A DNA stretch of 64,000 nucleotides, taken from Carboxydothermus hydrogenoformans Z-2901 (GTDB lineage Bacteria; Bacillota; Z-2901; Carboxydothermales; Carboxydothermaceae). Positions 15,987 to 64,000 of the stretch are shown one piece after another. A program made the translations under genes and the position numbers. The stretch lies in NCBI RefSeq assembly GCF_000012865.1, contig NC_007503.1, forward strand, positions 496,001 through 560,000. Direction: 5' to 3'. The first letter of the stretch is position 1; each line of letters opens with the position of its first letter. Under the pieces are notes generated by a model. It was given only the letters and a program-made list of their open reading frames with translations. It made no database searches and was not told where the DNA came from.

Positions 15987-16022
15987 TTTAAAATCACCGG
16001 TATATACCGGTGATTTAATTTT
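15987..16022. terminator. Terminator built on a 26-bp perfect palindrome
   Basis: Bases 15991-16016 form an uninterrupted palindrome (left arm AAATCACCGGTAT), preceded by a T/A-rich stretch and followed by TAATTTT. It can terminate the acyl-CoA synthetase transcript and perhaps also antisense transcription. A perfect palindrome could instead be a protein-binding site. Confidence 0.6.
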
Positions 16023-46460: not shown

Positions 46461-46490
46461 TTCTTGGTAATAAAAAAGCAATGATATAGT
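46461..46490 (+). promoter_or_regulatory. Promoter in front of hairpin element 1
   Basis: A -10 TATAGT (46485-46490) with a weaker -35 (TTCTTG, 18-base spacer) predicts a start near 46497, exactly at the base of the first hairpin element. Bases 46250-46460 upstream hold the regulator's ribosome site and nothing else that I can identify. Confidence 0.5.
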
Positions 46491-46495
46491 TCTTT

Positions 46496-46553
46496 GAGGG
46501 GAAATTGCTGTGGATACGGCAGTTAGCAGGGTTAACAATTCACCTCTTTTTTT
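46496..46553 (+). ncRNA. Hairpin-terminator element 1, possible small RNA
   Basis: The RNA would fold as a long stem (GAGG/CCTC, GAA/TTC, TTG/CAA with one mismatch and one bulge) capped by a 28-base core and followed by seven T. The core TTGCTGTGGATACGGCAG... is shared with element 2, whereas the stem arms differ in sequence but keep pairing, which suggests selection on structure. It has its own promoter directly upstream. It may be a short independent RNA or an attenuator of aroK-aroB. Confidence 0.5.
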
Positions 46554-46565
46554 ATGCAAAAGTTG

Positions 46566-46594
46566 TTGAATTCAGGTTAAAAAAGGCATATAAT
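46566..46594 (+). promoter_or_regulatory. Promoter TTGAAT-N17-TATAAT between the two hairpin elements
   Basis: The -35 TTGAAT (46566) and perfect -10 TATAAT (46589) are 17 bases apart, with a predicted start near 46601. The transcript would open with element 2 and, on read-through, carry the aroK-aroB mRNA. Confidence 0.72.
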
Positions 46595-46600
46595 GAATTA

Positions 46601-46676
46601 AAGATGTTGATTTGCCGGATGTTGCTGTGAAGGCGGTAATTGGCAGGATTGGGGGAGCAACTTCCGGCTTTTTTTG
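46601..46676 (+). ncRNA. Hairpin-terminator element 2, possible small RNA or aro leader
   Basis: GCCGGA/TCCGGC and GTTGCT/AGCAAC form a 12-bp stem with one T/T mismatch (46614-46668), followed by seven T. The loop holds the core GCTGTGAAGGCGGTAATTGG, then CAGG, which matches element 1 at most positions. It lies 43 bases upstream of the aroK-aroB start, so it could attenuate that gene. I do not recognise it as a known riboswitch. Confidence 0.55.
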
Positions 46677-46718
46677 TATATTTTTATTTGTATATTTTTA
46701 AAGGAAAGGGTTGTTAAA

Positions 46719-48308
46719 ATGAACATCATTTTAGTGGGACTACCGGGGGCTGGCAAAACACATATAGGTCGGATTTTAGCGAGGAAATTAAAAAGGAATT
46801 TTGTGGATCTTGACCGGAAGATTGAAGAAGAGACGGGACTTACGATTAAAGAAATATTTGCCCGTTTCGGTGAGCGCTATTTCCGCCGTTTGGAAGTAAA
46901 GAAACTACAGGAACTTTTTAAACTTCATAATGCGGTGATTGCCACCGGTGGGGGAACGGTAGAACGAATGGATGCGAGAAGAAAGTTAAAAAATCTTGGC
47001 TTAGTGGTTTATTTAAAGGCGTCCCCGGAAGTTATAATCCGGCGTCTTATTAATTTAGAAAATAGACCAATACTTACCCAGGGGGACCCTTTAGAAAAGC
47101 TTTCGGAGCTTTACCGTCGCCGGGATAAGTTTTACCGGGAAGTTTCCGATGTAGCAATTAATACCGAAGGTAAAGACTCAGGCGAGGTCGTTGACGCGAT
47201 CCTAAAATCCCTGACTATTGATGGTTTACGGTTTCCCCGGAAACTTTACATTAATTTGGCTGAAAATAGTTATCCGGTATATTTTGGCGAAAAAGTGGCG
47301 TTAAAAGCGGGTGAGTTTTTAAAAGAAAAAGTTACCGGGAAAAAGATTTTAATTGTTTCCCAGGAAAATATCTTTGGTTTATATGGCAAAACTTTAGAAG
47401 AAAGTTTAACAAAGGAAGGTTTTAAAACCGACGTTTTTTTTCTTCCCCAGGGGGAAGTTGCAAAATCTATGGAATATATTGTGAAGCTTTACGATAAAGC
47501 CATAGAGTTTGGACTACGCCGCCATGATACCGTTATGGCCTTTGGGGGAGGAGTAGTAGGAGATGCTACTGGATTTTTTGCCGCAACCTATTTGCGGGGA
47601 ATCAATTTTGTCCAGGTACCGACAACTCTTCTTTCTATGGTGGATAGCAGTGTAGGGGGGAAAGTGGGGATTAACCTTCCCCAAGGGAAAAACCTGGTAG
47701 GAGCCTTTTACCAGCCAAAAGTAGTGTTAATAGATACTACTTACCTAAAAACTCTTCCCAGAAGAGAAGTGCTGGCGGGATTGGCTGAAATTTATAAAGC
47801 GTTTTTAATTGCTGAAGAAAGCCTTGTCGGGTGGCTTTCCGGATTAAACCTGGATAAGCTCCGTCCAAGGGATTGGCAAAGGATTATCAAGGCGGCGGTA
47901 AAAATAAAAGCAAAGGTTGTATCCCTCGATGAACGGGAAGAAGGGTTACGGGCGGTATTAAATTTAGGCCACACCATAGGCCATGCGATAGAAGGTGTAA
48001 ACGGGTTTTCCGGTATTCTTCACGGCGAAGCGGTAGCTCTGGGAATATTATGGGAAGCCAAGCTCTCTAAAGATTTAGGATATTTAAGGGAGGAGGAATG
48101 GGAAAAAATACGGGAGTTTATCGAGAAAAATTATGCTTACTTAAAACTATCCTTAAATCCCGATAGCTTACTTGTTTTTATGGATAAAGATAAAAAAAAT
48201 CGGGAAGATATCGCTTTTATGCTTTTAAAGAAGATTGGTGAATACCCGGAAAATGTTGAAATAAAGAGAGAATGGTTACAAAAGTGGTTAACGTTGAATT
48301 TTTCTTAA
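46719..48308 (+). CDS. aroKB: Shikimate kinase / 3-dehydroquinate synthase fusion
   Basis: One 529-residue protein joins two aromatic-pathway enzymes. Residues about 1-165 are shikimate kinase (Walker A GLPGAGKTHIGR, DLDRKIEEETG, RYFRRLE, ATGGGTVER). Residues about 175-529 are dehydroquinate synthase (GGGVVGDATGFFAATYLRG, VPTTLLSMVDSSVGGK, LNLGHTIGHAIE, LHGEAVALG). The fused arrangement is known in some thermophiles such as Thermotoga. The ATG follows AAGGAAAGGG. It catalyses steps 2 and 5 of the chorismate pathway, with aroE and aroC encoded nearby. Confidence 0.95.
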   Translation: MNIILVGLPGAGKTHIGRILARKLKRNFVDLDRKIEEETGLTIKEIFARFGERYFRRLEVKKLQELFKLHNAVIATGGGTVERMDARRKLKNLGLVVYLKASPEVIIRRLINLENRPILTQGDPLEKLSELYRRRDKFYREVSDVAINTEGKDSGEVVDAILKSLTIDGLRFPRKLYINLAENSYPVYFGEKVALKAGEFLKEKVTGKKILIVSQENIFGLYGKTLEESLTKEGFKTDVFFLPQGEVAKSMEYIVKLYDKAIEFGLRRHDTVMAFGGGVVGDATGFFAATYLRGINFVQVPTTLLSMVDSSVGGKVGINLPQGKNLVGAFYQPKVVLIDTTYLKTLPRREVLAGLAEIYKAFLIAEESLVGWLSGLNLDKLRPRDWQRIIKAAVKIKAKVVSLDEREEGLRAVLNLGHTIGHAIEGVNGFSGILHGEAVALGILWEAKLSKDLGYLREEEWEKIREFIEKNYAYLKLSLNPDSLLVFMDKDKKNREDIAFMLLKKIGEYPENVEIKREWLQKWLTLNFS

Positions 48309-58832: not shown

Positions 58833-60221
58833 ATGGATAACTTCACAATAAACGAAGTGTTACGGGAAGCGGCCCGCCGGGGAGCGCCCTTTGCGGAAAT
58901 ATATTTTGAAGAAAAAAATAACTTTGGCCTTGTTTTAGAAGACGGAAAAATTGAAAAAGTAACTCAGGGTTACGAAGCTGGTGCCGGTATCCGGGTGATA
59001 GATGATAACGGAAGAACAACTTACGCCTATACCAATGATTTATCTTTGGAAGCTCTTTTAAAGGCCGTTCGGGTAGCTACTCTGGGTTTAAATGGGTTAA
59101 AGGACAGTGTGAGCCTGGAAAATCCCGAAGTCACCTCCGGTAACGTGCAGATTAAGCCGGGAGAAGTGGCAGCGGAAGAAAAACTAAACCTTTTAAAAGT
59201 TGCCGATGAAGAGATCAGAAGACTCGGTCCTGAAATTCGCCAGGTGCAGGCGAGTTACGGGGAGTTGGAAGCCAAAGTAGTTATTGCCAATACCGAAGGC
59301 ACTTATGTTGAGATGAACAAAACCCGGGTGCGGTTTGCGGTCCAGGCGGTAGCGGAAAAAGATGGGGTTATTCAGACCGGCTACGATGCCATAGGTACTA
59401 CCAAAGGTTTTGAGACTTTTAAGGAGCAGCAGGTGGATGTTGCGGCCCGGGCAGCGGGAGAACGGGCCATTAAAATGCTTTCGGCCGAGCCCGCCCCTTC
59501 GGGGGAAATGCCGGTGGTGATGGCCGGTGAAGCCGGCGGCACCATGATTCACGAAGCTTCGGGGCACGGCCTGGAGGCGGACATAGTCCAAAAGCGAATG
59601 AGCGTTTATGCCGGAAAAAAGGGTCAGAAGGTGGCCTCGCCATTGATTACTGTGGTGGATGATGGCACAATCCCCGGAAAATACGGGACCGTACCGTACG
59701 ATGATGAAGGAAACAAAACGAAGAAAAATGTTCTCATTGACCGGGGGATTTTAACCGGTTATATGTATGACCGGCTAACTGCTAAAAAAGATAACGTTGA
59801 GCCTACCGGAAATGGAAGAAGGGAGTCGTATCAGCATAAACCGATTCCCCGGATGACTAACACGTATATAGCTCCCGGTGAAGACGACCCGGAAAAGATT
59901 ATTCGGGAGGTAAAAGAGGGTTTACTGGTTAAAAAAATGGGTGGTGGACAGGTGGACACCAATACCGGCGATTTTGTTTTTGAGGTATCCGAAGGGTACC
60001 TGATTGAAGACGGCCAGGTTACCGTTCCGGTAAGAGGAGCTACTTTAACCGGCAACGGCCCCAAAGTTTTAAACAATGTGCTGGCCGTAGGTAAAGACCT
60101 GGGCTGGTCTATCGGTACCTGCGGTAAAGACGGCCAGGGCGTTCCCGTTTCCGACGCCCAGCCTACTCTCTTAATTGGTAACCTGGTGGTAGGTGGCACC
60201 GGCCGCATCCGCCGCAAATAG
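58833..60221 (+). CDS. tldD: TldD family metalloprotease
   Basis: This 462-residue zinc peptidase has the modified metal motif HEASGHGLEAD (HExxxH) and the conserved end IGTCGKDGQGVPVSDAQPTL. TldD usually acts with TldE on modified or unfolded peptides; no tldE is present here. The ATG follows GAGGGGGAAAGCC. It is monocistronic or shares a transcript with the FmdB-type gene 60 bases on. Confidence 0.95.
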   Translation: MDNFTINEVLREAARRGAPFAEIYFEEKNNFGLVLEDGKIEKVTQGYEAGAGIRVIDDNGRTTYAYTNDLSLEALLKAVRVATLGLNGLKDSVSLENPEVTSGNVQIKPGEVAAEEKLNLLKVADEEIRRLGPEIRQVQASYGELEAKVVIANTEGTYVEMNKTRVRFAVQAVAEKDGVIQTGYDAIGTTKGFETFKEQQVDVAARAAGERAIKMLSAEPAPSGEMPVVMAGEAGGTMIHEASGHGLEADIVQKRMSVYAGKKGQKVASPLITVVDDGTIPGKYGTVPYDDEGNKTKKNVLIDRGILTGYMYDRLTAKKDNVEPTGNGRRESYQHKPIPRMTNTYIAPGEDDPEKIIREVKEGLLVKKMGGGQVDTNTGDFVFEVSEGYLIEDGQVTVPVRGATLTGNGPKVLNNVLAVGKDLGWSIGTCGKDGQGVPVSDAQPTLLIGNLVVGGTGRIRRK

Positions 60222-60281
60222 CAAAAAGAGGTATAATTTTAGGGACTGTCCCCAAATTTATACTTGAGGAGGGTGTAGTGT

Positions 60282-60709: not shown

Positions 60710-62773
60710 TTGCGAAATTTTATGTTTTTTCTTTTCTTCGGACTCATCCTGGGGGTTGTAACATCGACTGCTTTTGCTGCCCAGATAAGGGTAGGCCAGG
60801 ATTACGGACCAACTCCCAAGTACTTTAATGCCGATGATAAAGCCTATTACCCCGCGGAAATTTACCTGCCCAATGAAACCAATCCTGCCCGGTACCGCAT
60901 CCACTCCAATTATAGCCGGAATACCGATGCCTGTGCTGCCTGCCACGCCACCCACACGGCAGTGGGGGAAACCCTGCTCCAGTGGGGAACGGTATATGAT
61001 ACCTGCATGGCCTGCCACGACGGCACCATTTCCACCACTTATAATGTGCAGGAAGGGGAAATAGGCGCCAACGGTAAACCCACTTACGGCGGTATGTTTG
61101 GCATAGGTAATGAACCTTTTCTTTCCAACCATCTGGTGACCGGAGCGGTAAAAATCTTTGCTGCACCCGGTGGAAATATCACCGGAAATTATGAAACCTA
61201 TGATGTACCGGACCAGGGGCAGGGAAAAATGTGGGATATAACCTTTGGCTGTGAGTCCTGCCACAGCCCTCACGGCTTGGGCGGCAACGCCCGCATCTTA
61301 AACCCCAATGTTAATGCATACAGCCTGGTAAATTATAAGACTAATTTTTCCCTTAAAAAAGTTACTGAAGGGAATGAGACTTTCTGGGTAGCCTTAAGTA
61401 GCGGCAACAGTTTTGATTCCACTGCCAAAAATGCTTACCAGTGGGTAAGAAGTTATCCGTATCTTAAAGGAACAAAAGTTTATTTTGATGGTACTGAAAA
61501 AGTCGAGGGAGTGGACTATGAACTTAGTAATTCCCAGGGGTATACTAAAATAAAAGTTTTACAGGGTAATCCTGCCACCATTACGGCGTCCTTTTATCCC
61601 GCCCTGCAAGTAGCCATGACCATTACCAATTATCTTGATGGTGATAACACTTCCCAGTCTCCCGACTCCGAAACGGTCATTCACGTAAAAGGCATCAATG
61701 CTTTCTGCGGGGCTTGCCATACCGACTACAATACCGAAAACGTTTATAAGGATAGTACGAAATCAGAACCCAACGGCTCTTCCGACCTTTTAAACGGGAA
61801 ATACACGGAAGCTTACCGGCACCAGGTTGGTTTTAACGTGGCCGACTTTGAACAGTATCTTCCAAACTCCAATATGGCTTATGAGCTCCGGGGTGGTAAA
61901 AAATTCATGACCTGTCTTACCTGCCATTATGCTCATGGTGTAAGTCAAAGTTTTTGGGAGAAGACATTAGAAGGGAACTGGTTCCCGGAAGCAAAAAGTT
62001 ACTGGGGTACCTTGCCGTTAGTTGAAATTGCCGGATCTTCTGCTCTAAAACGGGCTCCCAACATGGCGACCTGCGAAACCTGCCACCGTAAAGGTCCTGC
62101 TTCCGAAGGATATACGGCCAATTCTGCAGGAAGTACGCCGGGAAATAATCGTGATACTCCTGTAAATCCTTCCTTCCCATTGACCCGGGTAGACAACACC
62201 CTCTGCCAAAAATGTCACGAAAAAATCTATACCGGCTGGCTGCAAACTAAACACGCAAATCTAAGGGGAGATAGGGTAGACTGTCAGGATTGCCATACCG
62301 GCGGCAGTGAACACGTAAAGTCGCCTTCAGGGACGTATATGGATAGCATTTCTGAGCTAAATTACCAGCAGCAGGTAGCAAAATGTGCAGGTGCCAATTG
62401 TCACGGAAATACCAGTGATAGTTTAGCAAACATGGATTATAACAACGATACCATAAGCTTTGTAGACAGCAGCACTCCCCAGGTAAGAGAACATGTCAGC
62501 AGTAAGCACTACAACGTAGGTGCGATGACCTGTACTACATGCCATAATCCTCACGGAGTAATTAAGCACAACAATCAAACCTATGAGTTAAAATACCAGC
62601 CCAATTCCCTCTGTGCCTTTTGCCACGATTTAGGCGAATTTGCCGGTGCCTTTAACTGGGAAGATTATATGCCTCCGGTTCCAAGGGCAGCGGTAAATGG
62701 TGCTGCCTATCATCTCCACTCTTTTACCTATAAAGAAGCCAATTTTCCCGGGTGGTTGGATAGTGATCATTAA
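60710..62773 (+). CDS. Secreted multihaem c-type cytochrome (11 haem sites)
   Basis: The 687-residue protein has a signal peptide (RNFMFFLFFGLILGVVTSTAFA) and no other membrane segment, so it should be released or wall-associated. It has ten CxxCH motifs (first CAACH and CMACH near residues 70 and 100, last CAFCH near 645) and one unusual CAGANCH (C-x4-CH). Several sites are followed by a second histidine (CAACHATH, CESCHSPHG), as in doubled-CxxCH domains. Between haems lie beta-rich stretches. TTG at 60710 follows GAGGAGG. Its paralogue follows at 63113; a role in electron transfer to outside acceptors is likely. Confidence 0.9.
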   Translation: MRNFMFFLFFGLILGVVTSTAFAAQIRVGQDYGPTPKYFNADDKAYYPAEIYLPNETNPARYRIHSNYSRNTDACAACHATHTAVGETLLQWGTVYDTCMACHDGTISTTYNVQEGEIGANGKPTYGGMFGIGNEPFLSNHLVTGAVKIFAAPGGNITGNYETYDVPDQGQGKMWDITFGCESCHSPHGLGGNARILNPNVNAYSLVNYKTNFSLKKVTEGNETFWVALSSGNSFDSTAKNAYQWVRSYPYLKGTKVYFDGTEKVEGVDYELSNSQGYTKIKVLQGNPATITASFYPALQVAMTITNYLDGDNTSQSPDSETVIHVKGINAFCGACHTDYNTENVYKDSTKSEPNGSSDLLNGKYTEAYRHQVGFNVADFEQYLPNSNMAYELRGGKKFMTCLTCHYAHGVSQSFWEKTLEGNWFPEAKSYWGTLPLVEIAGSSALKRAPNMATCETCHRKGPASEGYTANSAGSTPGNNRDTPVNPSFPLTRVDNTLCQKCHEKIYTGWLQTKHANLRGDRVDCQDCHTGGSEHVKSPSGTYMDSISELNYQQQVAKCAGANCHGNTSDSLANMDYNNDTISFVDSSTPQVREHVSSKHYNVGAMTCTTCHNPHGVIKHNNQTYELKYQPNSLCAFCHDLGEFAGAFNWEDYMPPVPRAAVNGAAYHLHSFTYKEANFPGWLDSDH

Positions 62774-63112: not shown

Positions 63113-64000
63113 TTGAAGGGGAAGATTAAGGTATTGTGTTTACTGATTTTAGCCCTGCTGATTTTAGGGTCCAACGCTTACGCCGCCCAGCTTTTGACGG
63201 GCGACACCTACGCCCCTACGGTAAAGAAAGTATATGACGAGCAGAGGGGCATGGTAAGTAAGTTTAATGCCGATGATAAAACCTATTACCCCAATGAAAT
63301 TTATTTACCCAATGAAGCCAATCCTGCCAATTACCGCATTCACACCAACTATTCCAAAAACACCGACGCCTGTGCGGCCTGCCACGCCACCCACACGGCG
63401 GTAGGTCAAACCCTTTTACAGTGGGGAACGGTGTACGACACCTGCATGGCCTGCCATGACGGCACCATCTCGACCACCTATGATGTGCAAATGGGAACCA
63501 TCGCCACTACCCAAAAGCCCACCTACGGCGGAATGTTTGGCAGCGGCAATGAAGATTCCCTCTCCAACCACTTGGTCACCGGAGCGGTTCAGATTTTCGC
63601 TGCCCCCGGGGGAAACGTTACCGGCAACTATGAAACCAACGACACTCCCGACAAAGCCGGTGCCACTGCCTGGGATATTACCTTTGGCTGTGAATCGTGC
63701 CATAGCCCCCACGGCTTGGGCGGTAACGCCCGAATCCTAAACCCCAACGTCAATGCTTACAGCTACCTGAACTACAAGTCCAATGTGGCGTATGTTTATA
63801 ATTCTGCTACCGGTTATTACGAAAACAGCCAGAAATATCAGTGGGTCAGAAGCTATCCTTACAATAAAGGCACCCAGGTCTGGGTAAACGGTCAGTTAAA
63901 GACCGAAGGGGTGGACTACCTTTTGGACGGTACCAGCGGCGAAACCAGGATTAAATTACTCCAGGGAAACGGCAGCGTAACGGTAGTATATGCCTACTTC
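63113..64000 (+). CDS. Second secreted multihaem cytochrome, paralogue (3' end cut by window)
   Basis: This is a tandem paralogue of the preceding cytochrome, open to the window end with 296 codons visible. TTG at 63113 follows GGAGGAGG. A signal peptide (KVLCLLILALLILGSNAYAA) is followed by a segment nearly identical to its neighbour (FNADDKTYYPNEIYLPNE, then ACAACHATHTAVG and CMACHDGTISTTY), and a third haem at CESCHSPHGLGGNARILNPN. The third part diverges. Three haem sites are visible; more are expected beyond the edge. Confidence 0.88.
   Translation, partial: MKGKIKVLCLLILALLILGSNAYAAQLLTGDTYAPTVKKVYDEQRGMVSKFNADDKTYYPNEIYLPNEANPANYRIHTNYSKNTDACAACHATHTAVGQTLLQWGTVYDTCMACHDGTISTTYDVQMGTIATTQKPTYGGMFGSGNEDSLSNHLVTGAVQIFAAPGGNVTGNYETNDTPDKAGATAWDITFGCESCHSPHGLGGNARILNPNVNAYSYLNYKSNVAYVYNSATGYYENSQKYQWVRSYPYNKGTQVWVNGQLKTEGVDYLLDGTSGETRIKLLQGNGSVTVVYAYF

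Follow-up and report, generated by a model that had tools for sequence, protein, structure and literature searches.

Directly in front of the aroK-aroB fusion gene (aroKB) of the thermophilic, metal-respiring bacterium Carboxydothermus hydrogenoformans Z-2901 lie two short hairpin elements that share a core, and the question raised by this locus is what such a pair does. The elements were studied within a 64,000-nucleotide stretch of the genome (hereafter the window), to which all coordinates refer unless otherwise indicated, and in the genomes of two relatives. A note made earlier from the sequence alone had proposed that the core is conserved as an RNA fold of no known class and had linked it to aromatic amino acids. 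The comparisons described below point to a different role, in which the two elements would encode small RNAs directed against multiheme cytochromes.

Anatomy and conservation of the paired elements

The presence of two hairpins with a shared core was confirmed by sequence and folding, with element 1 (candidate sRNA 1) at 46496-46546 and element 2 (candidate sRNA 2) at 46614-46668, both on the plus strand and 5' of aroK-aroB (46719-48308, plus strand). The core pattern occurs twice exactly in the window, against a chance expectation of 0.04 at up to three mismatches in shuffled sequences. As the earlier note had observed, the arms of the two elements differ in sequence and yet stay paired, with three pairs changed on both sides; the outer stems share little sequence. 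The hairpin folding energies are modest compared with those of shuffled sequences (z -1.35 to -2.1), in keeping with the large open loop that the stem carries. Each hairpin is immediately followed by a T-run on the plus strand, at 46547-46553 for element 1 and at 46669-46675 for element 2, the latter also recovered by the promoter/terminator scan. This order of hairpin and T-run, typical of the intrinsic terminators of trans-encoded sRNAs, is found in three of three species. Elsewhere in the window, a perfect 26-base self-complementary sequence is located at 15991-16016, and a 12-base near-palindrome, GGGACTGTCCCC, occurs as a single copy at 60242-60253, just past a gene ending at 60221.

The earlier claim that each element has a promoter of its own holds clearly for element 2 and in weaker form for element 1. 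The element 2 promoter, TTGAAT-N17-TATAAT (46566-46594, plus strand), was identified by the promoter scan, and both hexamers and their spacing are invariant across the three species. The candidate promoter of element 1, TTGGTA-N15-TATAGT (46464-46490, plus strand), was recognized in the sequence by its motifs, is weak in C. hydrogenoformans and was not detected by the promoter scan of the C. hydrogenoformans sequence; its counterpart in C. islandicus, TTGCAA-N16-TATAAT, is stronger. Own intergenic promoters of this kind are characteristic of trans-encoded sRNAs, and the sequence supports the view of the locus as two predicted small RNA genes, each equipped with a promoter and a terminator.

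The genomes compared were those of C. hydrogenoformans (searched as one contig of 2,401,520 bases), C. islandicus (G001) and a third Carboxydothermus species (G002). Both elements are present in all three, where their placement before aroKB is kept, and the search with a covariance model that the earlier note had suggested recovered them in each genome. Three-species identity is 86% for element 1, 93% for element 2 and 79% for the element 2 promoter, vs 27% in the 100 columns upstream. An Rfam search of the window at the gathering threshold gave no match to either element, and a relaxed threshold gave chance-level matches only, in agreement with the earlier failure to assign them to a riboswitch class or other RNA family. 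Searches of published papers returned no report of Carboxydothermus small RNAs.

The core as antisense cytochrome sequence

A third good occurrence of the core in the window, with one mismatch and on the opposite strand, is located at 63323-63348, inside a cytochrome gene. Whole-genome searches with the element DNA in the three species returned the elements themselves and otherwise, with one exception considered below, antisense sites in cytochromes of this family, with E values of about 1e-5 to 1e-8. The elements thus have the complementarity to mRNAs of other loci, beyond chance and conserved in relatives, that is expected of trans-encoded sRNAs. A covariance model built from six elements (two elements in three species) ranked the elements first (E 4e-18 or better), then the cytochrome sites (4e-5 to 7e-3) and then noise. 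All antisense sites cover the same run of codons, N-P-A-N-Y-R-I-H-S-N, which immediately precedes the first CxxCH heme motif and corresponds to codons about 70-80 of the cytochrome mRNAs. The antisense stretch of 31 nt is made up of the loop plus the 5' arm of each element. In element 1, this guide occupies 46503-46533 (plus strand), as defined by guide-target alignment; in element 2, it occupies 46621-46652 (plus strand) and is 93.75% identical over 32 nt to the complement of 63318-63349. As judged from these alignments, the shared core is an antisense copy of multiheme cytochrome coding sequence. Its conservation is attributed to this antisense relation and not to an unknown RNA fold, as read earlier, or to a ligand pocket, and nothing was found that ties it to aromatic amino acids. 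The orientation of promoters and T-runs makes the antisense strand the one predicted to be transcribed.

Other leads were set aside. A match at 927552 fits the promoter region of element 2 and not the core. A peptide encoded on the minus strand, NPANYRLHSN, has stop codons close by and no evident start or ribosome site. RNAduplex energies do not single out the cytochromes, as other windows reach about -60 kcal/mol, and were too unspecific for target finding.

The predicted element 2 target in the window is cytB (63113-64000, plus strand), which encodes a cytochrome of 669 aa and runs past the window end; pattern search and alignment place the target site at 63318-63349 (plus strand; codons NPANYRIHTN). 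The adjoining paralog cytA (60710-62773, plus strand; 687 aa) has a diverged site (24/31) and serves as a natural non-target for comparison. The targets are secreted 11-12-heme cytochromes with Paired_CXXCH and MtrC-like domains; cytB gave no match in a search of PDB sequences. A domain of this cytochrome family is also contained in a 2496-aa open frame of C. islandicus (G001:C1:165729, L033). In C. ferrireducens, the cluster with these cytochromes has been named the pilin-cytochrome cluster, and its first two cytochromes are located at 217646-219709 and 220048-222057 (PMC7829351). Their lengths and spacing match those of cytA and cytB (60710-62773 and 63113 onward), so that the middle cytochrome of the cluster corresponds to cytB in size and spacing. 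The proteins detected by proteomics of C. ferrireducens include the first cytochrome of the cluster and the third, and the middle one is not listed (PMC7829351), an absence that fits silencing of cytB and may have other causes.

In a covariance-model search of 299 genomes from the phylum, good scores were confined to the elements of Carboxydothermus and the corresponding antisense sites; two hits read from the weak remainder were plain terminators. In six further genomes that encode this cytochrome family, the antisense pattern revealed no element. Good matches to the pattern in these genomes lie inside cytochrome genes, and the few three-mismatch matches elsewhere are at about control level. 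From these searches, the element pair looks specific to the genus Carboxydothermus.

Guides, targets and codons

The fit between guide and target was scored as the best 31-base match. In every genome, two cytochrome genes match element 2, with scores between 28/31 and 30/31: cytB (29/31) and a paralog at 1453 kb (28/31) in C. hydrogenoformans, two targets at 29/31 each in C. islandicus, and two at 30/31 each in G002. In G002 the mismatches to the two targets are at different bases, so every guide base fits at least one target. A mismatch of CTT for ATT is seen against both targets in two species. The match of element 2 to cytA, next to cytB, is only 23-24/31. In C. islandicus, the likely cytB ortholog is cut near the target site by contig ends (L036, start of G001:C48; L037, end of G001:C114), which leaves its match to element 2 unreadable. 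Element 1 matches a C. islandicus gene at C47:23.9 kb in 31/31 positions, and its best match in the other two species is 23/31.

The differences between guides follow the codons of the targets. Between the guides of elements 1 and 2 in C. islandicus, 7 of 30 positions are different, and six of these seven fall on the third base of a codon when read in the frame of the target (binomial P about 0.007), a pattern for which a structure-driven RNA offers no reason. Within one genome, the two element 2 targets differ overall in the codon used at 43% (C. hydrogenoformans) or 52% (G002) of the residues that they share, and at the site they show no synonymous difference in eight same-residue codons (P 0.012 and 0.003, uncorrected). 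At the non-target site in cytA, codons have changed at three of nine positions between species. In the species in which one target reads AACTCC, element 2 is altered to match. The co-variation is drawn from three genomes and few events, and all P values are uncorrected.

The two cytochrome genes of the C. islandicus region C47:17.5-24.2 kb are absent from the syntenic place in C. hydrogenoformans and G002, where the flanking genes are kept. The 23.9-kb gene branches outside a paralog clade common to the three species (clade support 100/99); its own branch is long, so the placement should be taken cautiously. On this placement the gene is probably of old origin, with loss elsewhere. Element 1 retains the synonymous letters of this gene in all three species, and in the two genomes without the gene the centre of the guide is changed (TAC to TGC and TAC to AAT) and the stem is mismatched. 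Element 1 may thus once have acted on a third paralog, one that C. islandicus retains, and would be decaying where that paralog is absent.

On this evidence we favor, at a probability of roughly three in four, the reading that the two elements are sibling trans-acting antisense sRNAs repressing particular cytochrome mRNAs, where anatomy, conservation, complementarity and co-variation are observed and both transcription and regulation are predicted. Alternatively, element 2 could chiefly be a leader terminator (attenuator) of aroKB, with read-through transcripts making aroKB and with an antisense loop that senses cytochrome mRNA or is incidental. Its promoter is the nearest good one to aroKB, a gap of 35-50 bp without an evident promoter lies between its stem and the start codon of aroK, and this placement is conserved in three species; no antiterminator was identified in the leader. 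We consider this unlikely as the chief role, because it would account neither for the antisense match to cytochrome sequence and the pattern of codon differences nor for element 1, which lies further 5' and has a terminator of its own. Element 2 may still double as the aroKB leader terminator beside its sRNA role. Equally unlikely is that the elements are inert pieces of cytochrome genes in inverted orientation, forming terminators only by accident. The 31-nt guides must indeed derive from cytochrome coding sequence, but inert fragments would hardly keep 86-93% identity across three species next to an upstream region at 27%, unchanged hexamers in the element 2 promoter, arms paired through changes on both sides, and guides that track separate paralogs. 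Separate guides in similar hairpin scaffolds with near-perfect matches of about 30 nt also recall guide RNAs that direct a CRISPR-like, Argonaute or TnpB-type protein to DNA or mRNA. We regard this as very improbable, since the outer stems of the two elements share little sequence and hence offer no common protein handle of the repeated CRISPR type, and Rfam gave no match. A chance likeness of a terminator loop to a cytochrome gene, conceivable for a sequence as short as about 31 nt, is refuted by E values of 1e-5 to 1e-8 in whole genomes of three species, all within a single gene family and the same run of codons, and has a negligible probability.

How the sRNA pair arose is a more tentative matter. 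Its birth by inverted capture of target coding sequence, followed by duplication, divergence of the guides at third positions together with their paralogs and decay on target loss, is a possible course to which we give slightly less than even odds; it would make the pair a prokaryotic silencing module that derives from a gene and is specific to individual paralogs.

Predicted action and relation to known systems

For the sibling sRNAs we infer pairing in cells, and the direction and route of regulation, as follows. Each RNA, of about 65-80 nt, would start at its own promoter and end at its own hairpin terminator. The stem would present a loop of about 25 nt that nucleates pairing with the cytochrome mRNA, and the 5' arm would then invade to give a duplex of about 30 bp inside the coding region, leading to RNase III type cleavage or stalled translation. 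Selected cytochromes would in this way be held low under conditions that do not need them, with element 2 acting on two cytochrome genes per genome; silencing of cytB but not of the neighbouring cytA is the corresponding prediction. Hfq is encoded in all three genomes and may not be needed. The predicted target site, more than 200 nt inside the coding region, is an uncommon position for sRNA action.

If this reading is true, a bacterial sRNA can originate as an inverted segment of its own target gene, guide and target co-evolve codon by codon, and the turnover of sRNA and target can be traced in sequence. The pair would also provide a regulator for the secreted multiheme cytochromes of Gram-positive metal reducers, for which we found no reported regulator.

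Trans-encoded antisense sRNAs with long complementarity are represented by IstR-1/tisB. Some plant microRNA genes are born by inverted duplication of their targets, and the Carboxydothermus elements resemble them in having a guide from the coding sequence that it would silence, placed in a hairpin; they differ in being bacterial, in carrying the guide in the loop rather than in the stem, and in implying no Dicer or Argonaute. Sibling sRNAs usually have a common seed, whereas the seeds of the Carboxydothermus pair have diverged in step with different targets. Like other sibling sRNAs (reviewed in PMC4211561), the pair consists of two related RNAs in one genome, in this case adjoining. RyhB of Shewanella oneidensis, which is Fur-controlled and acts with Hfq on many mRNAs via their 5' ends, lowers c-type cytochromes (PMC5826389). 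The predicted action of the Carboxydothermus sRNAs would likewise lower cytochromes; however, no sequence relation to RyhB was seen, and RyhB differs in its control by Fur and its action at 5' ends. In Sulfolobus, paralogs of RNA-2571 act against the 1183 mRNA by pairing in untranslated regions (PMC3674436). Common to both systems are short RNAs from another locus, paralogous to each other, with extended antisense pairing to mRNA. In Carboxydothermus, by contrast, the predicted pairing falls within the coding regions of a family of genes, with each guide matched to its own paralog down to the synonymous codons. Pairing sRNAs are thus a known class, of which guides copied from, and co-varying with, the codons of separate paralogs are an unusual variant.
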